DNA of 64,000 bases from Nitrospina sp. Its GTDB lineage: Bacteria > Nitrospinota > Nitrospinia > Nitrospinales > JACRGP01. The DNA is taken from assembly GCA_024648695.1 (NCBI GenBank), contig JACAVV010000005.1, positions 248,001 to 312,000 of the forward strand. Direction: 5' to 3'. A program made the position numbers and the translations under genes. The stretch's first letter is position 1. Every line of letters starts with the position of its first letter. Shown here piece after piece: positions 9,072 through 58,092 of this stretch. Under the pieces are notes generated by a model. That model made no database searches, had not been told where the DNA came from, and worked only from the letters and a program-made list of their open reading frames with translations.

Positions 9072-11084
9072 ATGACAATGATCCAGCAGGAGGAAGCCAC
9101 TCGTCAGGCTAAGGAACGGTTTAAAAACCGTGAGCAACAACGTGAGGCCAATGCAAACCAATTAAAGGAACTGAATCAAGGCGGCAATTTCGACTGGACC
9201 CAGATCGAAACGGTATCGCGTCTCGCGCAAAGGGCGAAGCGTCTGGGCCTGTTCGAGATGGCCAATGCGCTGATCAACGATCCCAAAGATGAGCAAACCG
9301 GTCGTCGGGTGTTCGAGCGCATCCTCGATGTGAATAATCTGATCAATGCCTCTTTCCTGACCGAAGGTGCACAAAAATCGCGGGCGGTGGGTCGCATTCG
9401 GATTCCATTGGGCACCAACGCCCGTTTAGGCACGGGCTTTATGGTGTCACCTCGTGTCATGATGACCAATAACCACGTTTTGAAATCACGTGCTGACGCT
9501 TCTAAAGGGGTTATTGAACTGGACTTCTTCGAGCGCGAAAATGGCGATACGGGTCCGGTCATCCGCTTCCGCTTCGAGCCAGAACTGTTTTTCATCACCG
9601 ATGTCAATCTCGATTTCACTCTGGTCGCCGTGGAGCCGGTCAATGTCGACGGCGCTTCAATCGAGGACCGTGGCTGGTTCCCTCTTATCGGCCCCTCTGG
9701 CAAGGCGGTGGTGGGCGAACGGGTATCGATCATTCAGCATCCGGATGGCAAACCTCAGAAGGTCGCACTCCACGATAACAGAATCGTCGACATCGATGTG
9801 AAGGACCATTTCATCCATTACAAAACTGACACCATGGGCGGTTCGTCCGGCTCACCGGTGTTGAATATTCAATGGGACCTGGTAGCGCTCCATCACGCCA
9901 CCTCCGGGAACAACAATGAGGGCGTGCGCATCAGTTCCATCGTCACCAGACTTCGCGAGATCATGGAAAACTCGTTTTCCGGAGCCCGCATCAACCGAAC
10001 GATGCTGAACGATTTGCTCGATTCCCAATCGCCGCCCCCTTCCCCTCCGCAACATTCAGGGCCGGGGACAATGGCGTATCAGGAATCGGCGCCCCGGTTC
10101 AATGCCGATGGCACTGCCACCTGGGTGGTGCCGGTCAACATCACGCTCGGTGTGGGCCAATTGCCGGGAGGCCGTATAGCGCCAAGCGCAATCGCCTCTG
10201 CTCCGGTACAGGGAAGCGGTATGGAGGACCCGCTCTTCAATGAAGCCATGCAGGCTCTGGAACGTTCGGACCAGAAAGAATATTATAATGAGGAAGAGGA
10301 TTTCGAAGTCTGTACAGAATATTATCCCGATTTCAAGGACCTCGATGGCACACAGTTGTACACGGCCCTATCGGACCTGCTGTCGCGCACACATACCACA
10401 ACGCTGAGTTACAAGCGGGCGCGCTGGAACCATTTGTACCCATGGATCGACCGGCGTGACGGGGAGTCGCGTGAACTGCGCGGCATTTATTCGGATAAAG
10501 TGTTCGATGCCCTGGAGATCATCCGCCAGGAAAGCGTGGCCGAAAGCCGGCGCGAGGCGATGATTCAGGAACGCATTCAGCACGAGTCTCTGGGCCCTGT
10601 CGACGAAGCGTTTTTGGAAGAGTTAGAAGCGTCCCACCCCTTCAATTGTGAGCACAGCGTTCCGCAGTCCTGGTTCAACAAACGCAAACAGCCAAAGACC
10701 GACCTGCACCATTTGTTCACCTCCGAATGGGGATGCAACAGTTTTCGCGGCAATCGCGCTTTTTTTGATTTCAACACCGAAGCTTTCCGCGAAGATTGCG
10801 GCGCAAGTGAAAAAAGCAAGTTCGAACCCAAACACGGAAAAGGCGCTGTGGCTCGCGCAACGCTGTATTTTCTGTTACGCTACCCGGGAGACATTGCTGA
10901 CACCAGCAAGGAAATGCCACGCGACCGTCTGGCCACGCTCATCCGCTGGTCGAACGAAAATGAAGTCACCCTTTGGGAAAAACACCGCAATGCGGAGATC
11001 CAGAAAGTTCAAGGCAATCGCAATCCGCTGATAGACTTCCCTGAGTTGGCTGATAAAATAGATTTCGATCCCGGATTCGCCTGA
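9072..11084 (+). CDS. Trypsin-like serine protease fused to endonuclease I
   Basis: 670 residues with GGGAG before the ATG. The N-terminal 100 residues are charged and helical. A V8/trypsin-type protease domain spans about 110-325, with the catalytic triad visible as His135 (MTNNHVL), Asp181 (VNLDFTLV) and Ser259 (GGSSGSP). A Pro-rich linker follows. Residues about 420-640 match the endonuclease I family: YKRARWNHLYPWID, then CEHSVPQSWF with His528, DLHHLFTSEW with His546-547, and NSFRGNRAFFDF. No signal peptide or membrane segment is seen, so it would act in the cytoplasm unless exported another way, which is unusual because endonuclease I relatives are normally secreted. The TPR gene follows about 95 bases later on the same strand. 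The domains are clear; the biological role is not known. Confidence 0.9.
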   Translation: MTMIQQEEATRQAKERFKNREQQREANANQLKELNQGGNFDWTQIETVSRLAQRAKRLGLFEMANALINDPKDEQTGRRVFERILDVNNLINASFLTEGAQKSRAVGRIRIPLGTNARLGTGFMVSPRVMMTNNHVLKSRADASKGVIELDFFERENGDTGPVIRFRFEPELFFITDVNLDFTLVAVEPVNVDGASIEDRGWFPLIGPSGKAVVGERVSIIQHPDGKPQKVALHDNRIVDIDVKDHFIHYKTDTMGGSSGSPVLNIQWDLVALHHATSGNNNEGVRISSIVTRLREIMENSFSGARINRTMLNDLLDSQSPPPSPPQHSGPGTMAYQESAPRFNADGTATWVVPVNITLGVGQLPGGRIAPSAIASAPVQGSGMEDPLFNEAMQALERSDQKEYYNEEEDFEVCTEYYPDFKDLDGTQLYTALSDLLSRTHTTTLSYKRARWNHLYPWIDRRDGESRELRGIYSDKVFDALEIIRQESVAESRREAMIQERIQHESLGPVDEAFLEELEASHPFNCEHSVPQSWFNKRKQPKTDLHHLFTSEWGCNSFRGNRAFFDFNTEAFREDCGASEKSKFEPKHGKGAVARATLYFLLRYPGDIADTSKEMPRDRLATLIRWSNENEVTLWEKHRNAEIQKVQGNRNPLIDFPELADKIDFDPGFA

Positions 11085-11178
11085 TCGGTATTCGGGCAGG
11101 CGGAATCTCCTATGCCCCTGTGGTTGAATCCGGATTTCGACTTCCAGGGCTAACCCTCAAACGAAAGTTTTCCACTTC

Positions 11179-12222
11179 ATGGCTAAATCTCCCGAAGACC
11201 TTTTTGACGAAGCCGAGCGCTTGTGCGAAGAAGATCAATTTGAAGACGCGCTCAAGCTTTTCGAACAGATCCTGAAACTGGATCCCGAACACACCAACGC
11301 CTGGAACGGTAAAGGCAATTGTCTGGACGCCCTGCGCCGTCCCGAAGAGGCCCTATCCGCCTACGATCAAGCCATTGCGCTCGATCCGAATGACCCTCGC
11401 TTGTGGTTCAACAAGGCCCTCACCTGGGACAGCATGGAGCGTTTCGAGGAAGCGGTACAGGCTTACGACAAGTCCCTAGCTCTCAATCCGGAAGACGCCG
11501 ACGCATGGCTCAACAAGGGCGAAGCGTTACGAAGCCTGAGTCGGTTTGAAGAATCCATCGAAGCCTATCAAAAGGTCGTGGCGCTCGATCCGGATGATTC
11601 CGACGCATGGGCCCAAATGGGCAGTTCATATTTTTACCTGGAAAAGTATGAAGTGGCTTTGAACGCCCTGGACCGCGCGCTGGAGATCAACCCCGACGAT
11701 CCAGACGCCTGGTACAACAAAGGCAAATCTTTTCACGAACTGGAACAGTACGATGATGCGGTGGCGGCTTACAAGAAGGTTCTCAAGATCATTCCCAAAA
11801 CCGTTTTTGTAATGTATGCCATGGGATTGGCCCTGATCGGACTGGAACAATACGAGGACGCCGCTAAAGTTTTTGGTCAAATTCTGGACCTGCAACCCGA
11901 CGACGGCGGATCCTGGTTTCAAAAAGGGTTTTGCTTATACCAGTCGGGAAAATTCAAAAAAGCCATCGAAGCCTTGAATCAGGCAACGGAGTTTAACCCG
12001 GAAGACGATGAGGCGTTTTATTTTAAGGGGCATTCGAATTTTGCTTTGGAAAACTTCAAGGAAGCTTTGAGCTGTTACGATCAGGCCATCGAATTGAACC
12101 ACCACTATGTGGAGGCCATGTACTTTAAAGCGAAAACCCTGAAGGCCCTGGCACGTGACCACGACGCCGAACGCGCCCTCAACACCGCCCGCATGCTCGA
12201 TCCCGATCTGCCGAATGTTTGA
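11179..12222 (+). CDS. Tetratricopeptide-repeat protein
   Basis: 347 residues made almost wholly of about nine to ten TPR units of 34 residues, for example AWNGKGNCLDALRRPEEALS, AWLNKGEALRSLSRFEESIE and AWYNKGKSFHELEQYDDAVA, each ending in a LDP/INP turn. There is no signal peptide, so it is a cytoplasmic protein-binding scaffold. It lies about 95 bases behind the protease/nuclease gene on the same strand and could serve as its partner, but that is inference. Its stop is separated by one base from the stop of the convergent membrane-protein gene. The ribosome binding site is weak. Confidence 0.92.
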   Translation: MAKSPEDLFDEAERLCEEDQFEDALKLFEQILKLDPEHTNAWNGKGNCLDALRRPEEALSAYDQAIALDPNDPRLWFNKALTWDSMERFEEAVQAYDKSLALNPEDADAWLNKGEALRSLSRFEESIEAYQKVVALDPDDSDAWAQMGSSYFYLEKYEVALNALDRALEINPDDPDAWYNKGKSFHELEQYDDAVAAYKKVLKIIPKTVFVMYAMGLALIGLEQYEDAAKVFGQILDLQPDDGGSWFQKGFCLYQSGKFKKAIEALNQATEFNPEDDEAFYFKGHSNFALENFKEALSCYDQAIELNHHYVEAMYFKAKTLKALARDHDAERALNTARMLDPDLPNV

Positions 12223-12223
12223 A

Positions 12224-13405
12224 TTAGCTTTTAGATAAAACACCCTTCAAAAATGCACACAACCATTCCTGCTCTTTGATTTTCATGTTGCTTCCAAACC
12301 GATAAGCCATTTGGTCCGTGCGAATCAAAATTTCGCCTCGCCGTTTTGCCTGGGAATTTACATTATGGCTGGTTTTAATTGAAACTTCCTTGATTCGTTG
12401 ACATTCCAACACAACTTTAACCTGAATAGAGTCCAGTACGGAATGATTGACTCGAATTTCTTTGGTATCGATATTTAGAATTTTTCGGATCCGGGAGTGC
12501 AAATATACAACCGCCAACATCAGCAGAAAAAGGCATACCATAAACGTGCTAAAAAACCATGATTGCGGGCCCAGGAAAGCCTCCCGCAAGGTCAAACCTG
12601 TGGCCAAAAGGGAAGTCAGTGCAATAAACAATGAAACCCTATTCCATCCGTTTGGTGGAAGATATACTTTCACAAGGTCGGGAGTTTCTTCAACCTCGAT
12701 GACGCTGTGCAATGGCGGTTTCGCTTTAAATGATTCGTTAAAATGGTGCTTACGAACAGGATCCCTTTGCGCTTTTTCCAAAAGTGTTAAATCCAGGTTT
12801 TGCCAGGGAGTGCGGGTTTCTTCAGTGCCGTTTCGATCAATCGCATCGATCCGGATTTTCTTTGCAAAGTGCTCCATGGCGAGATAGGCATGCGATTCGT
12901 TGTCAAGGACCAGAAAGAAGGCGGGTTCTCGCGATTCCCTGAATTGCAAGCCCACCAACCATATATCGGTATAAGCGGCCTGTTTCCGATAAACGCTTTT
13001 CTTCAAGACCACTCCTTCCAATGCGGACAATGGAAAGTTTTCTTCTTTCGGAGAGAACGTCCAGCCTCGAACTTTCTGAACGGTTCCCTTTTTCAAGTCG
13101 ACTGTCATCCTGTTGCTCCAGACGAAGGGTAAGGTCAGGGTCAATACTGTATAGACAATCAATATTCCGGATAAAAAAGGGAACCAATCGATTGCCCTCT
13201 CAAATAGGAGTAAAACCAGAAGCACTCCTAAAAAATAAACAAAGACATTCCAGAGAAGATAAAAATACCCTGGCCAATTGAATCCAAAATACAGCTTACT
13301 GTCCCTTTCTTCCTTCAATTGAAGATGCCAAAAGGCTTCTACAAAATTGAGCCTGAGAAACTTTCCTTCAACAGATACTCGGGAAAAATAGAAACCAGGT
13401 TTCAT
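12224..13405 (-). CDS. Four-helix membrane protein, unknown function
   Basis: 393 residues. Two membrane segments at about 48-105 (LLWNVFVYFLGVLLVLLLF and FLSGILIVYTVLTLTLPFVW), a soluble region of about 130 residues with alternating beta-like sequence, a second pair of helices near 265-320 (FIALTSLLATGLTL, FMVCLFLLMLAVVYLH) and a C-terminal cytosolic domain. The layout recalls PH-domain-like membrane proteins but no diagnostic motif is present. The start is the first ATG in the frame; no good ribosome binding site is seen. It converges on the TPR gene with a one-base gap. Confidence 0.75.
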   Translation of the reverse strand: MKPGFYFSRVSVEGKFLRLNFVEAFWHLQLKEERDSKLYFGFNWPGYFYLLWNVFVYFLGVLLVLLLFERAIDWFPFLSGILIVYTVLTLTLPFVWSNRMTVDLKKGTVQKVRGWTFSPKEENFPLSALEGVVLKKSVYRKQAAYTDIWLVGLQFRESREPAFFLVLDNESHAYLAMEHFAKKIRIDAIDRNGTEETRTPWQNLDLTLLEKAQRDPVRKHHFNESFKAKPPLHSVIEVEETPDLVKVYLPPNGWNRVSLFIALTSLLATGLTLREAFLGPQSWFFSTFMVCLFLLMLAVVYLHSRIRKILNIDTKEIRVNHSVLDSIQVKVVLECQRIKEVSIKTSHNVNSQAKRRGEILIRTDQMAYRFGSNMKIKEQEWLCAFLKGVLSKS

Positions 13406-13478
13406 AGGATAAGAGGAGTAAAAATTTATGAAAAATTAGGCAAGTGGACGCGGGTAGTTTATACTAGGGGGCACCGTT

Positions 13479-13513
13479 TTCCCAATCAGGAAAGTGGATA
13501 GCCCGATTGGGAA
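13479..13513 (+). promoter_or_regulatory. Hairpin upstream of the parvulin gene
   Basis: Nine-base stem TTCCCAATC (13479-13487) with GATTGGGAA (13505-13513), 35 bases before the ppiC start. A -10-like TATACT lies at 13460-13465, which would place the hairpin in the 5' untranslated region. It is followed by only a short T run, so it could be an attenuator or simply a stabilising stem. Confidence 0.45.
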
Positions 13514-13547
13514 CATTTTTGAAACTACAAAATTTTAGGAGACGTCA

Positions 13548-13826
13548 ATGCCTTCTGCAAGAGCACGACATATTCTGGTTGCTGACGAAAGCAAGTGCAA
13601 TGAGTTGAAAGCTGAAATCGAAAACGGAAAAGATTTTGGGGACGTGGCAAAATCGCATTCCAAATGCCCGTCTGGAGCCAGTGGTGGGGACCTGGGAGAG
13701 TTTTATCCCGGCCAGATGGTTCCGGAATTCGACCAGGTGGTTTTCAAAGAAGAAGTGGGGAAAGTGCATGGTCCGGTGAAAACCCAGTTCGGCTACCACT
13801 TGATCGAGATCACGAGCCGAAGCTGA
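13548..13826 (+). CDS. ppiC: Parvulin-type peptidyl-prolyl isomerase
   Basis: 92 residues, the length of the free-standing cytoplasmic PpiC parvulin, with AGGAG before the ATG. It begins ARARHILVADES and shows the family pattern KDFGDVAKSHSKCPSG, GGDLGEFYPGQMVPEFD, VFKEEVGKVHGPVKTQFG and YHLIEI, including the two active-site histidines (RHILV, YHLIEI) and the cysteine of SKCPS. It catalyses cis-trans isomerisation of prolyl bonds. The next small gene starts 7 bases after its stop, so the two are probably co-transcribed. Confidence 0.95.
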   Translation: MPSARARHILVADESKCNELKAEIENGKDFGDVAKSHSKCPSGASGGDLGEFYPGQMVPEFDQVVFKEEVGKVHGPVKTQFGYHLIEITSRS

Positions 13827-45808: not shown

Positions 45809-47503
45809 CTAGTCCTGGACGATGTTGCTCACGTTGAAGCTCCCCAACTGACTCACGGCACTGTTATTTCCGGTTCCGGTTTGCATTGTGGAGGCCATAT
45901 TGTTATACCCATCCTGACCGACAGTTGCGGAATGATCGGTTCCAAGCTGGTCTATGAGGGAATCATTGCCCGGTTCGATCAAATCGCCCTGTTGATTGAC
46001 CTCGGCATAGTTCCCATCTCCATCCTGAAAAATCTCTGAATTATTGTAGCCATCCATCTGGTTTACGATCGCCGTATTTCCAAGGCCTACGCCAGACGTT
46101 GTATCAAAACCATTATCAACATAAATTCCACCCCCGGAATTTATTTGCACTATGGTTGACGCATTATTAAATCCATTCTGATCGACGGTCGCAGAATGCC
46201 CGGACCCAAGCTGGTCAACGAGGGAATCGTTACCTGGATCAATGGCATCGCCCTGTTGGGTTATGTGGGCGTAGTTGTCGGTTCCATCCTGGTAAACCTC
46301 CGAATTGTTATAACCATCCATCTGGTTCACGATCGCGGTGTTTCCAAGACCTATGGGGAAAATATATTCACTTGGGGAGTCACCTGGTAAATCTTGTATG
46401 AATAAACCTCCGCCAGTCTGGATTACTGTAGAATCGTTATTGAAACCATCCTGATCGACGGTAGCTGAATTTCCGGTTCCAAACTGGTCAACGAGAGAAT
46501 CGTTGCCTGGATCAATCCCGTCGCCTTGTTGGGTCACACCGGCGAAGTTACCGCTTCCATCCTGGTAAACCTCAGAATTGTTATAACCGTCCATCTGGTT
46601 AACGACTGCTGTGTTTCCAAAACCTCCCTCAAAAATAAAATCGCTTTGGGTGTCGATCGGAAAACCTATTATTACGAAATCACCACCGCCACCCGTCTGG
46701 ATCACTGTTGAATCATTATTGAAACCATCCTGATCAACGGTAGCGGAATGGCCGGTTCCAGACTGATCAACGAGAGAATCGTTGCCCGGATCAATCCCGT
46801 CACCCTGTTGCATCACGTCGGCGAAGTTTCCCGAGCCACTTTGATAAACCTCCGAATTGTTGTAGCCATCCATCTGGTTCACTATCGCCGTGTTCCCGAT
46901 TCCAATATACTCACTGGACCTTTCATAGGGTAAAAAGCCTCCAAAACCATCCTGTACCACTACAGAATTATTATTAAACCCATCCTGATTGACGGTAGCA
47001 GTATTACTGGAGCCCATCTGCTCTACATAAGAATCGTTGCCCGGATCCACCGCATCGCCCTGCTGGGTGACATCTGCATGGTTGAAGAACCCGCTCTGGT
47101 AAACTTCCGAATTATTGTAGCCGTCAGACTGATTGACATTGGCCGTGTTCGATTCATCCGACTGGTCCACCAACGAATTGTTGTTGAACCCATCCTGAAT
47201 GACCGTTGTCGAGTTATCGAAACCAGTTTGCATGACATTCGACGTATTGCCAGGAACAATGCTGTCGCCTGACTGGGTAACATTCGCCGAATTCATGGTG
47301 CCATCCTGGTCAATGTTTGAATCGTTGCCGTTGTCGCTCTGGTCAACATTGGCATCGTTATCGGTTCCTGATTGTGTTGCGGTCGCCATGTTGTCAGAAC
47401 CGGATTGCGTTGTGGTACTGGTGTTGCCTGCGGCGAACGCCATACTGGTTACAAATACCCCGACGGAAATCACCGAGGCCACTGCCAAAAACTGTTTTTT
47501 CAT
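45809..47503 (-). CDS. Curlin-repeat protein B (alpha type, largest)
   Basis: 564 residues, AGGAG site, signal peptide KKQFLAVASVISVGVFVTSM nearly identical to those of C, E, F, H, I, J and K. The mature chain is a series of 11-residue curlin units, organised as superrepeats with the order NQMDGYNNSEVYQDG, VTQQGD, IDPGNDSLVDQ, VDQDGFNNDSTVIQTG. Between superrepeats lie three or four non-repeat linkers rich in Phe/Ile/Pro (GGDFVIIGFPIDTQSDFIFE and similar), a feature not seen in the other paralogues. No CxxC module. It ends GSFNVSNIVQD. Follows gene C on the same strand with a hairpin repeat between. Confidence 0.92.
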   Translation of the reverse strand: MKKQFLAVASVISVGVFVTSMAFAAGNTSTTTQSGSDNMATATQSGTDNDANVDQSDNGNDSNIDQDGTMNSANVTQSGDSIVPGNTSNVMQTGFDNSTTVIQDGFNNNSLVDQSDESNTANVNQSDGYNNSEVYQSGFFNHADVTQQGDAVDPGNDSYVEQMGSSNTATVNQDGFNNNSVVVQDGFGGFLPYERSSEYIGIGNTAIVNQMDGYNNSEVYQSGSGNFADVMQQGDGIDPGNDSLVDQSGTGHSATVDQDGFNNDSTVIQTGGGGDFVIIGFPIDTQSDFIFEGGFGNTAVVNQMDGYNNSEVYQDGSGNFAGVTQQGDGIDPGNDSLVDQFGTGNSATVDQDGFNNDSTVIQTGGGLFIQDLPGDSPSEYIFPIGLGNTAIVNQMDGYNNSEVYQDGTDNYAHITQQGDAIDPGNDSLVDQLGSGHSATVDQNGFNNASTIVQINSGGGIYVDNGFDTTSGVGLGNTAIVNQMDGYNNSEIFQDGDGNYAEVNQQGDLIEPGNDSLIDQLGTDHSATVGQDGYNNMASTMQTGTGNNSAVSQLGSFNVSNIVQD

Positions 47504-47561
47504 TTCAATCTCCTGCGTATTAAAAATGTGAAAAAGTTTCTAAACGAATTCTGTTCAAAAG

Positions 47562-47628
47562 CTGAACATGAGAAGAAGCGTGAAGTGGTTTTGGGTAAAC
47601 AGCGTCTTCACGCTTCCTACCTGTTCAG
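47562..47628. repeat. Curlin-locus hairpin repeat, copy 2
   Basis: Same arms and centre as copy 1 with one change (CATGAG for CATGGG). It lies 59 bases upstream of the start of gene B. Confidence 0.88.
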
Positions 47629-47779
47629 ATTTTTACTCTAAAGGACGGGTTATGGATCACCCTCACCTGAATCCTCTCCGGCCAGGGGAGAGGGTGAACA
47701 CCCCAAGTCAGACTTTAGTCTGCATTTGCGGAACACGGGCAAAGCGAAACTAACCGCCCTTTCCTGCGACCGTGGGCCG

Positions 47780-49066
47780 CTAGTTTTGTGTGATCAGGCT
47801 CACGTTGTTACTTCCGGACTGGGCAACAAAACTTGAGTTACCCCCACCGTTTTGAGTGGTCACCGCCAAATGCCCATCGCCTTCCTGGTGAATGGATCCA
47901 ATATGCCCACCGTCATCGTTCTGTTCCACGGTGCCGTCACAGGAATTACAATCGGCCAGGTCATTACCCTGAATGACGAACGCATCATTTTCATCGGAGT
48001 TTTGATCGATGAAGGCCGTGTTGCTTTGGCCCCACTGCTCAATTTCTCCAAAATTCAGTTCTTTGCCATTCTGGTCAACCGTGGCATGATTCAACTGGCC
48101 CACCTGCGTGATATTGGCAATGTTCAATACCGCCGGACCTGATTGATCCACAAACGCCATATTACTCGGAATGCTCAACTCGTCAGGGTCACCACTCTGG
48201 GTCACGTTGGCGTCGTTCACTTCTCCGTCCTGATCCACGTCCGCAAAATTCGCTTTATCCTCTTGATTGACGTAGGCGAAGTTGGCCAGGCCATCCTGAT
48301 TGACATCGGAAAGGTTTTCGGCTCCGTTTTGAGTCACGTTCGCCTGATTGGATTCTCCATCCTGAACAATAAATGACTGATTGCTGGGTGGAATGGTATC
48401 GAACAATTCTCCGCTTTGATGCACCGTAGCAATATTGCCCACACCCATTTGATCGATATCCGAAATGCTCTCGGCATCTTCCTGGGTAACATTGGCTTCG
48501 TGAAGCTCACCGTCCTGATTCACACTTGAATCATTATTGAAGCCGTTTTGGTCCACAGTGGCCGTATTGTCGACACCGAACTGGTCTACGTAAGAATTGT
48601 TTCCGGGAAGAACCGTGTCGCCCTGTTGCGTTACATAGGCCATATTACCGGAACCATCCTGATTGACATCCGAATTGCTGTAGCCATCCATCTGGATCAC
48701 ATCTGCGATGTTCCCGTCACCCAACTGACTCACAGTAGAAGTGTTGTTGAAACCATCCTGATTGACCGTCGCATCATGGTTCGCTCCATCCTGACCCACC
48801 AGAGATTCGTTACCAGGAACAATGCCGTCGCCCGCCTGCGTCACATCGGCCATGTTGTCATCGCCATTCTGGTCAATTTCCGAATTGTTGCCGTTGTCGC
48901 TCTGGTCCACAACGGCATCGTTGTTATTGCCAGTTTGAACCGTGGTGGCTGTGTTGGCGAAACCGCTCTGCGTGGTGGTACTGGTGTTGCCGGCCGCAAA
49001 GGCCAAGCTGGTGACAAACACCCCGACCGAAATAACGGAAGCCACTGCCAGAAATTGTTTCTTCAT
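47780..49066 (-). CDS. Curlin-repeat protein C (beta type)
   Basis: 428 residues with AAGGAGG before the ATG and the shared signal peptide. About 35 curlin units. Beta-type modules are present: GDTVLPGNNS, GELFDTIPPSNQSFIVQDG, QNGAENLSDVNQ and DPDELSIPSNMAFVDQSG. Near the C-terminus is the module DCNSCDGTVEQNDDGG with CxxC, followed by HEGDGHLAVTTQNGG-type units and the end NNVSLITQN. These modules are shared with F, I and J. It is the first gene after a 700-base gap, so it may start a transcript with B and A. Confidence 0.93.
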   Translation of the reverse strand: MKKQFLAVASVISVGVFVTSLAFAAGNTSTTTQSGFANTATTVQTGNNNDAVVDQSDNGNNSEIDQNGDDNMADVTQAGDGIVPGNESLVGQDGANHDATVNQDGFNNTSTVSQLGDGNIADVIQMDGYSNSDVNQDGSGNMAYVTQQGDTVLPGNNSYVDQFGVDNTATVDQNGFNNDSSVNQDGELHEANVTQEDAESISDIDQMGVGNIATVHQSGELFDTIPPSNQSFIVQDGESNQANVTQNGAENLSDVNQDGLANFAYVNQEDKANFADVDQDGEVNDANVTQSGDPDELSIPSNMAFVDQSGPAVLNIANITQVGQLNHATVDQNGKELNFGEIEQWGQSNTAFIDQNSDENDAFVIQGNDLADCNSCDGTVEQNDDGGHIGSIHQEGDGHLAVTTQNGGGNSSFVAQSGSNNVSLITQN

Positions 49067-49715
49067 GCTAAACCTCCTTCATTTGATTGAAAAAATCTAA
49101 CGATCTTCATCATTTAGAGCTTTTGTTCCCTTAAGCCGAATGAATACCAAAATACGAACAAGACATTTAAAGCTCCAGCCTCACTGTCTTCATGCGAACA
49201 ATTTCACGTTACCGCTACAAGAGGGAAACACATTACGCGCATCATTCGATCCGGAATTCATTTCACAGAAATCAGAAACTGGATAACCATTCCATACACC
49301 ATTTCTGTGGTATTAAAAAATCTAAACTATTTCATTAGATCGAAACTGCTCCAGCAACAAAAAGTTTTCTCAATGAGCTAAGTTATGCTTGGTTAAAATC
49401 GATCAATACTCAATATTGATTGAACTTTTATATAGTTAGCAAAAATACAGATATTTAATCGGGTCTATTATAAGCAATTTCAACTCCGCTTAATATACCC
49501 TTTTTGGGGTGTTTTTTTAAAATTATTTTAAACTCTTTAACTTCCCAATTTTCAACGTCTTTCATACCGTTGACAGGGTATAAATTCTCATTTAACCGGA
49601 TTTTTTATATCTATTCTTGCTTTGCTGACTTGTGGACCGGAAAAAGAGGAGGGGGTAAAAGGATAAAATTTTAAAGCTTTCTTCACTTTCAGCCAAAATT
49701 GCAATGGTCCATAAA
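49067..49715. promoter_or_regulatory. Long AT-rich region upstream of gene C, with shared motif
   Basis: No gene seen. At about 49492-49512 lies ATATACCCTTTTTGGGGTGT, a short inverted ATACCC/GGGGT motif in an AT-rich background. Similar motifs lie at about 50554-50575 upstream of gene D and at 54172-54194 upstream of the G remnant. A promoter or operator for the curlin transcripts is likely but not proven. Confidence 0.45.
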
Positions 49716-49755
49716 AAAAAGACCCGGCTACGCTCTGCAACAAGCGTAGCCAGGT
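49716..49755 (-). terminator. Terminator of curlin gene D
   Basis: Stem GGCTACGC (49726-49733) with GCGTAGCC (49744-49751), extended by GACC/GGTC across one mismatch, with an eight-A run on the left (T-run on the minus strand). Confidence 0.85.
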
Positions 49756-49769
49756 CCGGAATCAAACCA

Positions 49770-50246
49770 TTATTGAGCCTGACAACTTGAACAGGGCTCT
49801 CCGCCACCTTCATGACCGAACCAGTCCTGATAGGTGTGACTCACATTATTACTACCACTCTGGCTTACGTAGGCTGAATTGCCCTCATCCGCCTGATAAA
49901 CAGACGCGCTATTATTTTCGCCATCCTGCATAATGCCAGCAGTGTGGTCGTTGCCCCATTGCATTACATTCGCATAACAACTGTCGCATTCACCCGGCAA
50001 TTCGCCGCCTTGATACACATCAGCGGTGTTACCATAGCCATCCTGGATGATGTCGGTTTCGTTATAATCACCATCCTGCATCACCATCGAATGGTTACCA
50101 CTGCCCGCTTGTTCAATCTGTGCGATATTTTCATTGCCTTCCTGATCCACATCCGCGGTGTTGCCAGGGGGAATAGCATATGCAACGCTGGCACTCAACA
50201 TTCCAGCAAAAAATAAGGCCGCCATCACTTTGATTCCTTGTTTCAT
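49770..50246 (-). CDS. Small curlin-repeat protein D
   Basis: 158 residues from the ATG at 50246, which follows AAGGAG; the open frame extends to 50348 without support. Signal peptide KQGIKVMAALFFAGMLSASV. Nine or ten curlin units (DQEGNENIAQIEQAGSGNHS), then a unit with GECDSCYANVMQWGND. The C-terminus differs from the others: after NNVSHTYQ comes DWFGHEGGGEPCSSCQAQ with a second Cys pair. It sits alone between a promoter-like region and its own terminator. It may be a cap, nucleator or anchoring subunit (inference). Confidence 0.9.
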   Translation of the reverse strand: MKQGIKVMAALFFAGMLSASVAYAIPPGNTADVDQEGNENIAQIEQAGSGNHSMVMQDGDYNETDIIQDGYGNTADVYQGGELPGECDSCYANVMQWGNDHTAGIMQDGENNSASVYQADEGNSAYVSQSGSNNVSHTYQDWFGHEGGGEPCSSCQAQ

Positions 50247-50742
50247 CTCATTGCTCCTTATGTGAAATTGAAATAAAAAAATTTCTAAACCAACTTCGTT
50301 CAAAAAAAACTGAACCCATGATAAAGCACAAATGGAAACTTGACTCATAAAGCCCTATTACCATGTATGCAGTATAAAAATTAGAAAATACACACTACTA
50401 ATAACCAGATTAAACAAAATATAAAATTTGATTAATTTTCAACTGCCTTTGAATCCAAATCAATTAAGTCATTATTTATATTGAATTTTTAAAACTTTAT
50501 GAATTGATATTTCAGGATTCGCTATTAGGTTAAGTGATTTCACCAATATTATATATACCTCTAAAAGGGTATTTTTAAAAAATTTTAATTAAACCTTTAA
50601 GTTATTATCTTTCAAGAGGTTCAGGTCAAGGCGTTGAATTCAGGGCACCGGTTATTATCGGATTTATGATACGGGTCCGCGGATTAGCGGTTTCGGATAT
50701 AAAAGTGGAGAGATGTGGGAGGTTTTGCATCTTTTATGGATA
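50247..50742. promoter_or_regulatory. AT-rich region upstream of gene D with shared motif
   Basis: The motif ATATATACCTCTAAAAGGGT (about 50553-50572) followed by ATTTTTAAAAAATTTTAATT resembles those upstream of C and G. A degenerate piece of the hairpin repeat (GTTCAAAAAAAACTGAACCC, about 50300) is also seen. No gene. Confidence 0.45.
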
Positions 50743-50783
50743 AAAAAAATGGAAGTGAACACGGGAACACCGCATCCATTTCC
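50743..50783 (-). terminator. Terminator of curlin gene E
   Basis: Arms GGAAGTG-AAC and CCGCATCCATTTCC form an imperfect stem, with an A-run on the left. Nearly the same sequence terminates gene H (54583-54623). Confidence 0.7.
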
Positions 50784-50840
50784 ATAAAATTCAGTACAAA
50801 AAACAGCCGAGGCCAAAAATTTCCGGCAGACGTCTCCGAC

Positions 50841-52181
50841 TTAGTTTTGGGTGATCATGCTCACATTGCCGGCACCTGACTGGAATACCGCACTGATATT
50901 TCCCAATCCATTCTGCGTGGTGACTGCCAGGTTGGTGTCGCCATCCTGAGTGATGGATGCAGTGTGGCCGCCATCATCATTCTGCACAACAGTCGCGTCA
51001 CAAAAGGAACAAGGGATGCCGCCAAAGCCTTGATCAATATTTGCTGTGTTGTCATCGGAGTTTTGATCCACGAAGGCAATGTTGTGGTCGCCTATCTGAT
51101 CTATGTCTCCATAATTCGTGACGACTCCCTCAATCTGCTCAATGCTGGCAATGTTTAAACCTCCCACTTGATAAACATCAGCGCTATTTGAGGTTCCATC
51201 CTGGTCAACAAACGAATCATTGTTGTAGCCATCCTGAATCACATCGGCGGTGTTGGATGCGCCTGCCTGAAATACCGTGGATACGTTACCCGGTTCAATC
51301 AGGTCGCCCATTTGCATCACGTTGGCTGTATTTGAACTGCCAGACTGCCCTACCAGGGAACTGTTATATCCATCGAACTGATAAACCGCCGCAGTGTTTC
51401 CTGATGCCGTTTGATCCACTTCGGAACTGTTATTGAAACCATCCTGGGTCACCGTCGCTGTGTGATCCCCTGTTCCCGATTGGGTGATTATAGAATCATT
51501 CCCTGGATCCACTCCATCGCCACTTTGTGTCACCGCGGCTGTGTTTAGAGAACCGGCCTGGTCTACGAAGGAACTGTTGTATCCATCGGACTGAGTCACC
51601 GTCGCCTTGTTAATCAAGCCCGCTTGATCCACTTCAGAACTGTTATTGAAACCATCCTGGGTTACCTTCGCCATATTAAAACCCTCTCCCGATTGTGTGA
51701 CTATAGAATCATTCCCCGGATCGACTCCATCTCCGCTCTGCGTCACTGTGGCTGTATTAAAATTTCCACCCACCTGCTCTACGAATGAACTGTTGTACCC
51801 ATCGGACTGCGTTACTGTTGCAGTGTTGAACCTGCCAGTTTGATCCACATCAGAAATGTTATTGAATCCCGCTTGATCTACCGTCGCGGTGTGATCATCA
51901 ACTTTCTGAGATACTAGGGATTCATTGCCAGGGGCAATGAGGTCGCCACTTTGAGTGACATCGGCATTATTGTCTGTTCCGTCCTGATCAATATTTGAGG
52001 TATTGTCCGCATCGCTTTGATCAACGATGGCTTCATTATCCATTCCCGCCTGAGTCGTGGTTGCTACTTGCCCGGTACCCGTTTGCGTGGTGCTACTCAT
52101 ATTTCCTGCCGCAAAGGCAACGCTTGTTACAAACAGACCTGCTGAAATAACCGAGGCCACTGCTAAAAATTGTTTCGTCAT
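50841..52181 (-). CDS. Curlin-repeat protein E (alpha type)
   Basis: 446 residues with the shared signal peptide (TKQFLAVASVISAGLFVTSV). Superrepeats of about 70 residues: VTQSDGYNSSFVEQ, VTQSGDGVDPGNDSIVTQSG, VTQDGFNNSSEVDQ, repeated about three times. Then a GDLIEPGNVS unit, the variable units DVYQVGGLNIASIEQIEG, the CxxC module PCSFCDATVVQNDDGG and the end GNVSMITQN. Directly downstream of F with a hairpin repeat between; its terminator is nearly the same as that of H. Confidence 0.92.
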   Translation of the reverse strand: MTKQFLAVASVISAGLFVTSVAFAAGNMSSTTQTGTGQVATTTQAGMDNEAIVDQSDADNTSNIDQDGTDNNADVTQSGDLIAPGNESLVSQKVDDHTATVDQAGFNNISDVDQTGRFNTATVTQSDGYNSSFVEQVGGNFNTATVTQSGDGVDPGNDSIVTQSGEGFNMAKVTQDGFNNSSEVDQAGLINKATVTQSDGYNSSFVDQAGSLNTAAVTQSGDGVDPGNDSIITQSGTGDHTATVTQDGFNNSSEVDQTASGNTAAVYQFDGYNSSLVGQSGSSNTANVMQMGDLIEPGNVSTVFQAGASNTADVIQDGYNNDSFVDQDGTSNSADVYQVGGLNIASIEQIEGVVTNYGDIDQIGDHNIAFVDQNSDDNTANIDQGFGGIPCSFCDATVVQNDDGGHTASITQDGDTNLAVTTQNGLGNISAVFQSGAGNVSMITQN

Positions 52182-52225
52182 CTGACGTACCTTTTATTCA
52201 AAAATCTTAATCAACTGCTATAAAG

Positions 52226-52282
52226 CTGAACATGAGAAGAAGCGTGAAGTGATTTCAGACCTCACGCTTCCTACTTGTTCAG
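52226..52282. repeat. Curlin-locus hairpin repeat, copy 3
   Basis: CTGAACATGAGAAGAAGCG and CGCTTCCTACTTGTTCAG arms with a shorter centre than copies 1 and 2. 45 bases upstream of gene E. Confidence 0.85.
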
Positions 52283-52494
52283 ATATTTTAAAAATAAAGA
52301 TCAAAGGAATGCATCCCCCTGACCTTCCTTAATATCTTTATAAGAAATGCCAAGCTATGCTTGGTGCTAAGCTAGGCGCACCCTGCCCTCTCCCGCCAGG
52401 GGAGAGGGTGTGTGGATGCTGTAAAACTTTAATCTCGCCTCTGGGCGAGGGAGCGAAGCGACCCCAGCCCAAGTTTCCTGCAGGCGTCGCCTGC

Positions 52495-53781
52495 CTAGTT
52501 TTGGGTGACCATGCTGACGTTGCCGCTTCCGGACTGGGAAACCGCACTGATGTTGCCACCACCGTTTTGAGTCGTCATCGCCAGGTGACCGTCACCCTCC
52601 TGATTGATGAGGGCGTCGTGTCCGCCATCATCGTTTTGCTCGATGGTGGCATCACAAGACATACAATCCATGCCTTCATGGCCCTGATTGATTTCTCCAA
52701 TGTTTTCATCAGAGTTCTGGTCGACAAAGGCCAGGTTGCTTTGACCCCACTGGGTGATGAATCCATCGTTCACTTCCTTGCCATTCTGGTCGATGGTAGC
52801 TTCGTTCAACTGGCCGACCTGATTGATGTTAGCCAGATTCAAAACAGCCCCACCCGTCTGATTAACAAAGGCCAGGTTGCTGGGAATGCTCAACTCGTCG
52901 GGATCGCCACTCTGGTTCACATTGGCTTCGTTGACTTCACCTTCCTGATCGATATCGGCCCAGTTAGCCTTGTCCAACTGCGTAACATTTGCCAATTGCG
53001 CCAGGCCGGACTGATCCACAAAGGACTGGTTTTCAGCGCCATTCTGGGTCACATTCGCTTCACTGGATTCACCCGTTTGAGAGATGTATGAACGGTTGCT
53101 TGGAGGAAGCGTATCGAACAGCTCTCCACTCTGATGAACGTTGGCGAGGTTGCCGACATTGGTCTGATAAACATCCGAGAAACTTTCGCCATCTTCCTGT
53201 GTCACATTCGCTTCGTTGAGTTCACCATCCTGATTAACGACAGAATCATTATTGTATCCATCCTGCACAACGTTCGCGGTGTTAACTACACCCAACTGAT
53301 TCACAAAAGAATCGTTGCCGGGATCTACAGTGTCCCCACCCTGGGCGACACTCGCACTATTAGCGAAACCATCCTGATCCACGTCGGAAGCATTGTATCC
53401 ATCGGTCTGGCTTACCGAAGCGAGGTTGCCATCGTCCATTTGGGATACATCAGAAACGTTGTTGTAACCGTCCTGACCCACCGTGGCTTCGTGGCCCTCA
53501 CCACTTTGGGTGATGTTGGAATCATTGCCCGGATCAAAAATATCACCCATTTGATCCACATCGGCAAAGTTGCTGGCACCATCCTGATCAATGTTGGAAT
53601 TGTTATAAGCATCACTCTGATCAACGGTGGCATCATTGAAGTCACCGGCCTGAGTGATTGTAGACATCTGGCCTGTACCCGACTGAGTCGTGGTGCTGGT
53701 GTTGCCCCCTGCGAAGGCCATACTCGTCACGAATACGCCCACTGAGATTACGGAGGCTACTGCCAGGAATTGTTTTTTCAT
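52495..53781 (-). CDS. Curlin-repeat protein F (beta type)
   Basis: 428 residues from the ATG at 53781, preceded by AAGGAG; the frame extends to 53814 without support. Same length and module order as C: shared signal peptide, IFDPGNDSNITQ, GDTVDPGNDS, GELFDTLPPSNRSYISQTG, QNGAENQSFVDQ, DPDELSIPSNLAFVNQTG, DCMSCDATIEQNDDGG and the end GNVSMVTQN. The 3' flank (CTGCAGGCGTCGCCTGCCTA) is shared with gene H, a trace of sequence exchange between paralogues. Confidence 0.93.
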   Translation of the reverse strand: MKKQFLAVASVISVGVFVTSMAFAGGNTSTTTQSGTGQMSTITQAGDFNDATVDQSDAYNNSNIDQDGASNFADVDQMGDIFDPGNDSNITQSGEGHEATVGQDGYNNVSDVSQMDDGNLASVSQTDGYNASDVDQDGFANSASVAQGGDTVDPGNDSFVNQLGVVNTANVVQDGYNNDSVVNQDGELNEANVTQEDGESFSDVYQTNVGNLANVHQSGELFDTLPPSNRSYISQTGESSEANVTQNGAENQSFVDQSGLAQLANVTQLDKANWADIDQEGEVNEANVNQSGDPDELSIPSNLAFVNQTGGAVLNLANINQVGQLNEATIDQNGKEVNDGFITQWGQSNLAFVDQNSDENIGEINQGHEGMDCMSCDATIEQNDDGGHDALINQEGDGHLAMTTQNGGGNISAVSQSGSGNVSMVTQN

Positions 53782-53853
53782 GGTCAATCTCCTTATTCTG
53801 ACTTTAAAATGCATTTAAAGATTTTCATCGTATTAGACCTCTTCCGCTTAAAG

Positions 53854-53926
53854 CTGAACAGGAGCAGAAGCATGAACGGTCACCTGAATTGCAATGAGTT
53901 CGCTCTTCCAACTTGCACAGCTTGTT
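53854..53926. repeat. Degenerate curlin-locus hairpin repeat, copy 4
   Basis: Starts CTGAACAGGAGCAGAAGCAT like the other copies, but the second arm is eroded. Between the G remnant and gene F, the same relative place as the others. Confidence 0.5.
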
Positions 53927-53930
53927 GAAA

Positions 53931-54054
53931 TTAATCTTCGTGACCGTGCCAATCCTGAAACGTGGAAGTGCTGTTACCGCCAGCAAACGCAACACCAGAG
54001 GTCAACATGCCAGCCATTAACAATACGGTCATGGATTTAAAATAGTTTTTTCAT
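53931..54054 (-). pseudogene. Curlin remnant G: signal peptide joined to C-terminal tail
   Basis: After TGGAGTG and the ATG at 54054 the sequence encodes MKKLF, then one extra T shifts the frame. Corrected, it continues KSMTVLLMAGMLTSGVAFAG, a signal peptide like that of gene D, and goes directly to GNSTSTFQDWHGHED and a stop. That ending matches the DWFGHEG tail of gene D. All curlin units are missing. It looks like an internal deletion of a D-type gene followed by a frameshift. An in-frame ATG after the shift could still give about 36 residues. Confidence 0.75.
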
Positions 54055-54333
54055 TTTTCACTCCATTAGAAAAAAAGCTTAAAAATAAAAAAGCTTTTCT
54101 AACGTTAAACTTCTTAAAAAATTAAATGATAATATTTCAGCCTATGGTTTATGTTAAGAAATTTTTACTTTTTTATATATACCTCTTATGGGGTATTTTC
54201 AATAATATTTAATAAATAATATAACTTACTATTTTTCAATAGTTTATAAATTTCAAATACCCCATACATTCAAGCTATTTTCAGAACTCTGATGTATCCT
54301 TTTTAATAAACCCATTTGAGGTTATAAAATCAC
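54055..54333. promoter_or_regulatory. AT-rich region upstream of the G remnant
   Basis: Contains TATATATACCTCTTATGGGG followed by TATTTT at about 54172-54196, the same motif as upstream of C and D. No gene. Confidence 0.4.
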
Positions 54334-54530
54334 GTAGGTTGGGGTGAGGAATGAACACAACATTATAGATGTCGCCTTTTAATAACCATCTGTTTCCTGG
54401 AAACGAATATAGACGATCTTGCCGGGATTTGGTTTTCGGGGAGGCCTTCGTTTTGATTCGTATGGGATTTTCCGGGTTGACCTTTTTCTACGGCAAACAA
54501 TGTTGGGGTTCGTTCCTCACCCCAACCTAC
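54334..54530. mobile_element. MITE-like element with 32-base inverted ends
   Basis: GTAGGTTGGGGTGAGGAATG (left, from 54334) pairs with CATTCCTCACCCCAACCTAC-type sequence (right, to 54530); arms of about 32 bases with two or three mismatches. 197 bases in all. Open frames inside have no recognisable product, although NNHLFPGNEYR recalls the start of small REP-type transposases. It is inserted between the terminator of H and the upstream region of G. Confidence 0.65.
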
Positions 54531-54582
54531 AAAACTGGAAAACATATTCGTTGCTCTGAAGGGGGAATTGGAATTTTTCCCA

Positions 54583-54623
54583 AAAAAATGGAAGTGAACG
54601 CGGGGTTAACCGCATCCACTTCC
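54583..54623 (-). terminator. Terminator of curlin gene H
   Basis: GGAAGTG-AACGCGG and CCGC-AT-CCACTTCC arms, with an A-run on the left. Nearly the same as the terminator of E. Confidence 0.85.
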
Positions 54624-54705
54624 AAAAAATTTTCTAACCGGATTTAACCTAAAGGCGCGGGAGCAAAGCGACCCCAGCCGCAAGCTTCCTGCAGGCGTCG
54701 CCTGC

Positions 54706-56259
54706 CTAGTTTTGCGTGATCATGCTGACGTTGCCGGTACCGGACTGGGATACTGCACTGACATTACCCAAGCCGTTCTGGGTGGTGACCGCCAGGTTAG
54801 TGTCGCCATCCTGAGTGATTGTAGCCATGTGGCCACCATCATCATTCTGCTCAACGGTCGCGTTACAAAAGGAACAACCGGAAACTGATCCCTGATCGAT
54901 ATCCGCCATATTGTTTGCAGAATTCTGATCAACAAAGGCTGTATTGTTATCGCCTATCTGATCAATCGTTCCTTCGTTATCATCACCGCCAATCTGCTCA
55001 ATATGGGCATCATTCAAACCACCTTCCTGATACACTGCCGCATCATTCACTTCATCATCTTGATCAACGAATGACACATTGTTGAAACCATCCTGGGTCA
55101 CCGTCGCGGAACCATTATTTCCAACCTGAGATACAATGGAATCGTTACCAGGATCCACGGCATCGCCACTTTGAGTCACGGTCGCAGTGTTTATTTCACC
55201 CGATTGCACCACTAAGGAAGCGTTATATCCATCGGTTTGGTTCACCGTCGCCTCGTTACCAATATTCGATTGATCCACATCAGAACTGTTATTGAAACCA
55301 TCCTGAGTCACCGTCGCAGAGTGGAAACCGGTTCCCCCTTGCGTTACTACAGAATCATTGCCGGGATCCACCCCATCGCCGCTCTGAGTCACGATGGCTG
55401 TATTGCCACCACCACCCGCCTGGTCCACGTCGGAGGTGTTATAGCCATCGGACTGAGTCACCGTCGCGGTATTACTACCTCCACCCCCCTGGTCCACATT
55501 AGAACTGTTATTGAAACCATCCTGAGTCACCGTCGCCGTGGAACCAGCTCCACCACCTTGCGTTACAATGGAATCATTCCCCGGATCCACCCCATCGCCG
55601 CTCTGCGTCACTGTCGCTGTACCACCGCCACCACTGGACTGACTCACGACCGAAGTGTTATACCCATCGGATTGGGTTACCGTCGCTGTGGCACCACCTG
55701 ATGACGTCTGGTCGACATCAGAACTGTTATTGAAACCATCCTGAGTCACCGTCGCCGTGGAACCTACTGACGATTGCGTTACCATAGAATCATTTCCGGG
55801 ATCCACTCCATCGCCGCTCTGTGTCACTGTTGCGGTGTGACCAAATCCATCCTGTTCTACAAACGAGGTGTTGTAACCATCCGACTGGTTCACCGTTGCA
55901 TCGTTACTGATTCCAAACACTTGGTCGACATCAGAACTGTTATTGAATCCCGCCTGGTCTACGGTCGCGGTGCCGGATTCTCCCAATTGAGTTACCGTAG
56001 AATCGTTACCAGGGGCGATGAGGTCGCCGCTTTGAGTGACATCGGCGATATTGCTCACTCCGTCCTGATCAATGTCAGACGTATTGTTCGCATCACTTTG
56101 ATCGACGGTGGCATCGTTGAGGTCGCCTGCTTGGGTTATCGTGGACATTTGGTTCGTACCCGTCTGGGTCGTGGTGGCGGTATTGCCTGCAAACGCTATG
56201 CTGGTCACAAACACGCCGACCGAAATGACGGAGGCGACTGCGAAAAATTTTTTATTCAT
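54706..56259 (-). CDS. Curlin-repeat protein H (alpha type, Gly-rich turns)
   Basis: 517 residues, AGGGAG site, shared signal peptide (NKKFFAVASVISVGVFVTSI). Four superrepeats with GDGVDPGNDS or GDAVDPGNDS, VTQDGFNNSSDVDQ and VTQSDGYNTS. Several turns between units are enriched in glycine (QGGGAGS, QGGGGSN, SSGGGGT), unlike E, B or K, which could change fibre packing. CxxC module VSGCSFCNATVEQNDDGG and the end GNVSMITQN. Paired with I upstream via hairpin copy 5. Confidence 0.92.
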   Translation of the reverse strand: MNKKFFAVASVISVGVFVTSIAFAGNTATTTQTGTNQMSTITQAGDLNDATVDQSDANNTSDIDQDGVSNIADVTQSGDLIAPGNDSTVTQLGESGTATVDQAGFNNSSDVDQVFGISNDATVNQSDGYNTSFVEQDGFGHTATVTQSGDGVDPGNDSMVTQSSVGSTATVTQDGFNNSSDVDQTSSGGATATVTQSDGYNTSVVSQSSGGGGTATVTQSGDGVDPGNDSIVTQGGGAGSTATVTQDGFNNSSNVDQGGGGSNTATVTQSDGYNTSDVDQAGGGGNTAIVTQSGDGVDPGNDSVVTQGGTGFHSATVTQDGFNNSSDVDQSNIGNEATVNQTDGYNASLVVQSGEINTATVTQSGDAVDPGNDSIVSQVGNNGSATVTQDGFNNVSFVDQDDEVNDAAVYQEGGLNDAHIEQIGGDDNEGTIDQIGDNNTAFVDQNSANNMADIDQGSVSGCSFCNATVEQNDDGGHMATITQDGDTNLAVTTQNGLGNVSAVSQSGTGNVSMITQN

Positions 56260-56329
56260 TACTAATCTCCCTATTAGAAAAATTAAACCTTAAAATTTTT
56301 AAACCGTGTCATCGGTCACCGCCCATAAG

Positions 56330-56386
56330 CTGAACATGAGAAGAAGCGTGAAGTCATTTCCGATTTCACGCTTCCTACTTGCTCAG
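56330..56386. repeat. Curlin-locus hairpin repeat, copy 5
   Basis: CTGAACATGAGAAGAAGCG and CGCTTCCTACTTGCTCAG. 70 bases upstream of gene H. Confidence 0.82.
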
Positions 56387-56526
56387 TTTTTTAACTATCA
56401 AGATTTAAAGGAATCATCCCCTTTGACCTTCCTTAAAATGTTTATAAGGGAATACCAAGCTTTGCTTGGTCACCCTGCCCTCTCCCTCCAGGGGAGAGAG
56501 GGAGTGCTTCCAACGGCCGTGGGCCG

Positions 56527-57891
56527 CTAGTTTTGTGTGATAATACTTACGTTGTTACTTCCCGTCTGATAAACGGAACTACTGTTGCCAATGTCGTTCT
56601 GAGTCGTTACAGCAAGGTGGCCATCACCTTCCTGATTGATCGTCGCAAAATGGTCACCACCGTCATTTTGCTCAATCGTCGCATCACAGGAAAAACAATC
56701 AGGCACTTCTTCACCACCCTGATAGATAGCCGCATAATTTCCATCCGAGTTTTGATCAACAAGTGCTGTATTGCTTTGCCCAATTTGAGTGACAAAACCC
56801 TCATTATCAAACTGACCTTCCTGCTCCACGCGGGCAAAATTCAACTGGCCAAACTGGACAATTTCGGCCAGATTTTCTTCTGCGCTACCAGTCTGGTCCA
56901 CTTGCGCGATGTTACTGGGAATGCTCAACTCGTCGAAGTCACCACCCTGGGAAACGAAAGCAGTGTTTGCATAACCCACCTGGTCAATGTCTGAAGAATT
57001 TGCCAGATTGGACTGAAAAACGGTGGCATCATTTAAATCACCATCCTGATCAACGTGAGACAGGTTTTCCGCTCCATCCTGAATGACCAGTGCCGTATTT
57101 CCAGCTTCATCAGAATGCTGAGTAACATAAGACCGATTGCTGGGAGGGATGGTATCGAAAAGCTCTCCCCTCTGCTCAACTGTAGCGTCGTTTCCAAAAC
57201 CCGTCTGGGTAACTTCAGATATACTTTCCGAGTCTTCTTGCAATACTGAGGCCGAGTTGCCAATCCCGTCCTGCGTTACGGTCGAATCGTTATTGTAACC
57301 ATCTTGCGTAACATCTGCGGTGTTGAACTCTCCAAACTGATCCACAAGGGAATTGTTTCCCGGATGAACCGTATCACCAGACTGATTCACTGTGGCTGTG
57401 TGACCAAAGCCACTCTGATTGACATCAGAAGTGTTGTAGCCATCGTTCTGGGTAACAGTAGCTTCATTGTCATCAAATTCCTGGTCCACGGTTGAAACGT
57501 TATTATAACCATCCTGGGTCACAGTAGCATCATTTCCGATACCACTCGTCTGACTTACTGTCGAATCGTTACCAGGATCAAAAATGTCACCGCTCTGGGT
57601 AACAGTAGCGGTATTTGAAGCTCCATCCTGGCCTACGGTAGAGGTATTGTACGCATCACTTTGAGTGACGTTTGCTTCGTTAAAACCACCATCCTGGTCA
57701 ATGGTAGAGGTATTATTCGCATCACTTTGATCGACGGTCGCTTCGTTGTCCGTACCCGCCTGTGTAGTCGTTGCCATTTGACCGGTACCTGTTTGTGTGG
57801 TGGTACTTATATTGCCGCCTGCAAAGGCAACACTGGTGACAAACACACCCACCGAAATGACGGAAGCAACTGCTAAAAATTTATTTTTCAT
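56527..57891 (-). CDS. Curlin-repeat protein I (beta type)
   Basis: 454 residues, AAGGAG site, shared signal peptide. Beta-type modules: GDTVHPGNNS, GELFDTIPPSNRSYVTQ, QDGAENLSHVDQ, DFDELSIPSNIAQVDQTG and DCFSCDATIEQNDGGD; ends SNNVSIITQN. Longer than C, F and J by about two units near the N-terminus (AYNTSTVGQDGASNTATVTQ). Its 3' flank (CGGCCGTGGGCCGCTAG) is shared with gene C. Confidence 0.93.
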   Translation of the reverse strand: MKNKFLAVASVISVGVFVTSVAFAGGNISTTTQTGTGQMATTTQAGTDNEATVDQSDANNTSTIDQDGGFNEANVTQSDAYNTSTVGQDGASNTATVTQSGDIFDPGNDSTVSQTSGIGNDATVTQDGYNNVSTVDQEFDDNEATVTQNDGYNTSDVNQSGFGHTATVNQSGDTVHPGNNSLVDQFGEFNTADVTQDGYNNDSTVTQDGIGNSASVLQEDSESISEVTQTGFGNDATVEQRGELFDTIPPSNRSYVTQHSDEAGNTALVIQDGAENLSHVDQDGDLNDATVFQSNLANSSDIDQVGYANTAFVSQGGDFDELSIPSNIAQVDQTGSAEENLAEIVQFGQLNFARVEQEGQFDNEGFVTQIGQSNTALVDQNSDGNYAAIYQGGEEVPDCFSCDATIEQNDGGDHFATINQEGDGHLAVTTQNDIGNSSSVYQTGSNNVSIITQN

Positions 57892-57947
57892 CTTATTCTC
57901 CTTATATGTATTAATGAAAATTGTTTAAAAGTTAACCTGTTCAAAAT

Positions 57948-58081: not shown

Positions 58082-58092
58082 AAAGGTTCAAA

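Follow-up and report, generated by a model that had tools for sequence, protein, structure and literature searches.

A V8-like protease fused to Endonuclease I in Nitrospina, a candidate latent effector of an accessory conflict system

In a window of 64,000 nucleotides from Nitrospina sp. (contig JACAVV010000005.1, positions 248,001 to 312,000), we found a gene whose product joins a V8-like serine protease to an Endonuclease I-type nuclease (EndoI) within one chain. The fusion recurs in distant bacteria, and among its relatives other destructive enzymes take the place of the DNA cutter; together, these observations suggest a self-destruct or anti-invader weapon controlled by proteolysis. We favor the interpretation, with a probability of roughly one in two, that the protein acts in the cytoplasm as a latent effector, made as one chain, of an accessory conflict system (anti-invader or programmed-death), in which the nuclease would be gated by proteolysis.

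Domains, active sites and N-terminus of the fusion

A sequence-only reading of this region had placed a protease and an Endonuclease I-type domain in a single cytoplasmic-looking chain, and Pfam matches, invariant catalytic residues and the lack of a hydrophobic N-terminus all bear this out (Table 1). Trypsin_2 (aa 120-273) and Endonuclease_1 (aa 520-658) both scored far over their curated cut-offs, the latter with 88.8 bits against a gathering cut-off of 25. An AlphaFold2 model computed from 54 fusion sequences, the window protein included (the other 28 of the 82 rows, the two from plasmids included, were left out), had a mean pLDDT of 84.8, with confident protease and nuclease modules and a low-confidence linker at approximately residues 320-388.

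Table 1. Features of the fusion gene and of its downstream neighbor (positions within the window).
Feature	Position	Strand	Basis or remark
Protease-Endonuclease I fusion, 670 aa	9072..11084	+	ORF call, Pfam, AlphaFold2
N-terminal helical region, aa 1-81	9072..9314	+	Weak conservation; (near-)invariant E82/R83 directly after
V8-like serine protease module, aa 82-315	9315..10016	+	Trypsin_2, 2.3e-21
Interdomain linker, aa 316-389, mostly low-confidence	10017..10238	+	pLDDT <50 at 328-338 and 358-384
Conserved linker motif NADGTATWVVPVNITLGVG, aa 344-362	10101..10157	+	Core pattern in related fusions
Endonuclease I module, aa 390-670	10239..11081	+	PF04231, 6e-25
Catalytic His135	9474..9476	+	Invariant 82/82
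Catalytic Asp181	9612..9614	+	Invariant 82/82
Catalytic Ser259 (GSSGSP)	9846..9848	+	Invariant 82/82
Glu527-His528, predicted metal ligand and general base	10650..10655	+	Invariant 82/82; roles presumed from Vvn
Asn556, predicted metal ligand	10737..10739	+	Invariant 82/82; role presumed
TPR protein, 347 aa	11179..12222	+	94 nt downstream of fusion; adjacency not conserved

Among 82 aligned fusion proteins (79 genome rows, two plasmid rows and the window protein; L060, whose reading frame is split, was left out), protease residues H135, D181 and S259 and nuclease residues E527, H528 and N556 were invariant, and thus both active sites appear to be selected for. The Glu/His/Asn assignment presumes that these residues correspond to the catalytic residues of Vvn and EndA. 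Three cysteines of the nuclease, C526, C555 and C576, were likewise invariant in all 82 proteins; position 551 is Cys in 80 and Ser in two, the window protein being one of them. C526, C555 and C576 together with C551 (window 10647-10800) could form a metal site that replaces disulfides in a cytoplasmic Endonuclease I. The fusion shares with Endonuclease I, Vvn and EndA (PF04231) the nuclease family and the E-H and N catalytic residues, but differs from them in being cytoplasmic-looking, in its attachment to a protease, and in belonging to a subfamily with the three invariant cysteines.

Searches of PDB sequences matched the nuclease to Vibrio-type Endonuclease I (2g7e, 2vnd and 1oup) and the protease to staphylococcal Spl/V8-type proteases. 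The best structural match of the protease was the protease domain of human FAM111A (Z 20.9 over 207 residues, rmsd 2.5), to which the V8/Esp proteases were nearly equal (Z about 19); the chymotrypsin fold and an intact triad are common to the window protein, the V8/Spl/Esp glutamyl endopeptidases and FAM111A. The staphylococcal V8/Spl/Esp proteases are secreted, and FAM111A is a eukaryotic protein that has other domains besides its protease and a role at crosslinks.

Classical Endonuclease I proteins are exported by means of a signal peptide, which is not part of the Pfam definition. By hydropathy, this signal peptide was not seen in the fusion, and neither the window protein nor its 81 relatives contain a hydrophobic N-terminal segment (over 15 residues, the first 70 aa reach a Kyte-Doolittle mean of at most 1.34). 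The sequence-only reading had held that an export route would speak against its proposal; we saw no export signal, on a measure that leaves room for specialised secretion. The N-terminus is modeled as a long helix plus short helices, with no confident structural match: Foldseek gave two matches in the comparison with the CARD/death fold (E 4.1 and 7.5), with no CARD entry among the matches listed, and the best VIA match reached Z 4.8 over 44 residues.

Distribution of the fusion and exchange of its second enzyme

A scan of 84,980 species genomes, using an alignment of five proteins as the query, returned 324 candidate stretches and 242 relatives, of which the best 80 were kept. We found that protease and EndoI lie in one frame in 79 of these best 80 of 242 (L060 is split), so the domain order whose recurrence the sequence-only reading had proposed to check does recur, in a sample that favors full-length fusions because its loci are the best-ranked ones. 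Thirty of the 80 are from Streptomyces; the remainder come from cyanobacteria, Planctomycetota, Pseudomonadota, Nitrospira, Chloroflexi, Myxococcota, Acidobacteriota, Bacteroidota and others, and the closest to the window protein is that of Shimia abyssi (57%).

Within its own phylum, the fusion was found in one of 77 genomes at E<=1e-15, namely its own, and was absent from the other 76; a looser threshold yielded relatives with EndoI-only or protease-only matches. The GC content of the fusion gene is 0.543, compared with 0.467 across the window, and the gene ranks first in GC among the 42 ORFs of 150 aa or longer called there. No other phylum genome searched carries the fusion, its GC is high and its nearest relative is in Shimia; taken together, these features make the gene look horizontally acquired, and it is probably moving horizontally. 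The protease module is itself patchy, occurring in 9 of 385, 20 of 292 and 57 of 195 genomes in three genome sets. We ruled out a vertically inherited housekeeping gene on the basis of the distribution within the phylum and of four relatives that keep the cyclase-FecR pair of this region with no fusion nearby (two of these contigs are short). With respect to mobile elements, we found no tRNA and no convincing repeats as borders at the locus, where promoter and terminator matches were near shuffled expectation. No relative turned up when viral contigs were scanned with the plain protein, and phage records gave only two short EndoI-only matches.

The second enzyme varies among relatives of the protease module. 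The module is joined to Endonuclease_NS (NucA-type) in L023, L027, L028, L030 and L033, to a GDSL-like domain in L024 (with a GDSL match under the Pfam cut-off), to both Exo_endo_phos and EndoI in L022, and to an alpha/beta-hydrolase in L032; it also occurs in EAD1-, EAD5-, EAD8- and EAD11-trypsins. In a tree of 85 protease domains, from which 30 near-duplicate EndoI rows were left out and in which long-branch rows (e.g., L144 and L164) are placed uncertainly, the EndoI label required six changes, of which at least four fall on branches with good support. A supported group of 10 rows (99/90) places the GDSL fusions among EndoI fusions, next to the window protein. We read this nesting as effector swapping, in which a lipase-like domain has taken the place of a nuclease in one protease clade. 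A separate alphaproteobacterial locus (L149:553-3345) encodes Amidase_3, the protease module and Exo_endo_phos in one chain, a protein that combines cell-wall attack with nucleic-acid or phosphodiester attack.

The linker carries a conserved motif whose core was present in 70 of 82 EndoI fusions, five of 12 NucA-type fusions and none of three GDSL fusions, as compared with approximately 4% of shuffled linkers. A longer pattern, run against the open frames of all loci (1.6 million residues), matched only family proteins, with one exception in L157; at that locus (L157:1360-3551), a NucA-type nuclease and the protease are encoded by separate, adjoining genes, and the WTIPL motif lies N-terminally in the nuclease. 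We found no conserved linker motif of this kind in the available text of the literature searched. We suggest that the linker's beta motif may dock on the protease or regulate it. A more specific version of this idea, which we hold only tentatively, is that a shared protease module would serve as a chassis for killers that can replace one another (Endonuclease I, NucA, GDSL-like lipase, Exo_endo_phos and amidase), and that the linker strand WTIPLxITVxLG would act as a lock, docked on the protease until a trigger allows the protease to cut the linker and release the killer. The placement of the motif in L157 is as expected of a docking tag.

Neighborhood of the fusion gene

The sequence-only reading had likened the protease-nuclease pair, with the adjacent TPR protein as a repeat scaffold, to the composition of effector systems. 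The scaffold did not survive comparison: TPR was matched in one of 45 neighbor proteins scanned (11 of 54 listed neighbors were left out), that one being the window's own, and a search of 20 relatives for TPR matches at E<=1e-50 gave none. We thus ruled out the TPR gene as a partner, and the TPR protein is probably not part of the system. Between the fusion and the conserved cyclase-FecR pair stand the genes for the TPR protein, for a 393-aa protein that Pfam does not match and for a PpiC-type isomerase (window 11179-13826); in the four relatives examined, these genes were not found next to cyclase-FecR, save for a weak TPR match in L220.

Nor did PADLOC, applied to 30 window proteins, detect a defence island at the locus; its matches were of kinds that have housekeeping members too (a class III cyclase, a dGTPase-type phosphohydrolase and a sigma-54 activator). 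We found no sensor gene beside the fusion. The genome as a whole contains no EAD1, NACHT matches only below the cut-off, and three S8 protease genes, the nearest of which lies about 56 kb off on the same contig. In a distant part of the window (45809-61265), at least eight minus-strand ORFs share a near-identical signal-peptide start (MKKQFLAVASVISVGVFVTS...) and have repeats of the curlin type; of the 30 window proteins scanned, a set that covered part of this array, two were matched by Curlin_rpt.

The effector-like composition itself held up better elsewhere, through the kinship of the protease module to EAD-trypsins and through an operon in Nannocystis (L108:5728-12725), in which a trypsin-NTPase is followed by an EAD1-trypsin and then by a trypsin-EndoI fusion. 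The NTPase is AAA_16/NACHT-like (strongest ATPase match AAA_16, 33.3 bits against a cut-off of 32.6), and this operon is the best locus for finding a sensor. In Chloroflexi L091, the fusion is followed by two EAD1-trypsins. S8 protease genes occur in the flanks of 10 of the 80 fused loci (a raw count, from the best 80 of 242), and in all four Bacillales plasmid loci an unfused EndoI of the same subfamily has an S8 protease gene upstream. The fused loci have no constant operon partner and most of their neighbors are unrelated; the neighborhoods are variable, and a consistent housekeeping neighborhood, which the sequence-only reading had set against a link to defence, was not found.

Comparison with published systems and candidate functions

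A trypsin-Endonuclease I fusion is not described in the available text of the literature searched, which included PMC7159879, PMC13236601 and PMC8195603, the original CARD-NLR description being outside its scope. The available text of Kaur et al. 2020 eLife (PMC7159879) describes, as 'System 3', trypsin-NucA conflict systems with S8, EAD1 and STAND components, proposes a proteolytic cascade that deploys the nuclease, and has zero mentions of Endonuclease I, EndA, NucM, GDSL or amidase. Like System 3, the fusion unites a trypsin-like peptidase, its active site intact, with a small nuclease domain in one protein or operon, and the S8 peptidases, EAD1-trypsins and STAND NTPases of some System 3 operons have counterparts at relatives of the window protein. 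The System 3 nuclease, however, is NucA/Endonuclease_NS, whereas Pfam assigns the window protein to Endonuclease_1 only, and the EAD1, STAND or second trypsin of a subset of systems, present in L091 and L108, is missing at the window locus. A second comparison is LypC of Caulobacter LypABC (CARD-NLR-like), a trypsin-endonuclease protein required for lysis (PMC13236601). As described in the available text, LypC resembles the fusion in its N-terminal trypsin-like peptidase, flexible linker, C-terminal endonuclease (aligned there with both Dns and NucA) and location outside a defence island; in contrast, the adjacent NLR-like ATPase and CARD-trypsin-ATPase (LypA/LypB-like) are absent at the window locus. 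Because its nuclease type and operon differ, we do not count the window fusion as a NucA-trypsin/LypC member, and infer by analogy that it may work as those effectors do.

We infer the following function, trigger and proteolytic gating. In the chain, a helical segment is followed by the V8-like serine protease, and a flexible linker bearing the conserved beta motif connects this protease to the nuclease. An active cytoplasmic DNase would presumably kill the cell, and so the nuclease would be kept inactive. An invader or stress signal would switch on the protease, possibly via an unlinked sensor or another protease; the activated protease would then cut the linker, in cis or between molecules, or cut a partner, and would thereby free the nuclease to degrade DNA. 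Several observations argue for this effector function: the fusion is kept in 79 of the best 80 relatives, both catalytic sets are invariant, no export signal is seen, the destructive domains are exchangeable, the kin include EAD-trypsins, the L108 and L091 operons and S8-EndoI plasmid loci exist, and the distribution is patchy. Against it stand the lack of an adjacent sensor, of EAD1 and of NACHT matches over the cut-off in the genome, of a defence island and, mostly, of an operon partner, and the dispensable nuclease of LypC.

This last point bears on an alternative that we consider unlikely, in which the protease is the true executioner or a signal relay, as in LypC, and the nuclease is secondary, stabilising or active only in some hosts. 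In the available text of PMC13236601, the S296A substitution abolished LypC-dependent lysis and nuclease mutants did not, such that the protease site is essential and the nuclease site dispensable, which weakens any nuclease-centered interpretation; the protease module is, moreover, what members of the family have in common, and the second enzyme is what differs among them. The invariance of the nuclease site in 82 of 82 fusions nevertheless argues that the nuclease is used, and the Bacillales EndoI accompanies a different protease family (S8).

Somewhat more doubtful is that the enzyme is secreted or injected and serves in competition or in the scavenging of nutrients; it would then leave the cell by a specialised or lysis-dependent exit with no signal peptide. 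Consistent with this idea, classical Endonuclease I is exported, and cell-wall hydrolases or enzymes of secreted type are encoded near some relatives: GH19, an amidase and a murein endopeptidase in Geminocystis, an amidase and S8 in Priestia, and a DUF4157 protein in Streptomyces L021. The absence of a hydrophobic N-terminus in all 82 proteins (by hydropathy) argues against it, as do the EAD adaptors of related trypsins, which belong to intracellular conflict systems according to the available text of PMC7159879. A DNA-maintenance enzyme, in which protease and nuclease jointly clear protein-DNA crosslinks, is improbable: the best structural match is FAM111A, a protease linked to DNA replication in the source text available, but V8/Esp match almost as well and this is a generic fold. 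The gene is also patchily distributed, with none in the other phylum genomes searched, and close kin carry a lipase-like domain in place of the nuclease.

If the latent-effector interpretation is true, the fusion would extend the protease-nuclease conflict effectors to a second class of nuclease and would document effector swapping, from a nuclease to a lipase-like domain, inside one protease clade. It would also provide a protein, encoded by one gene and bearing both active sites, on which the proteolytic control of a bacterial death nuclease could be tested.
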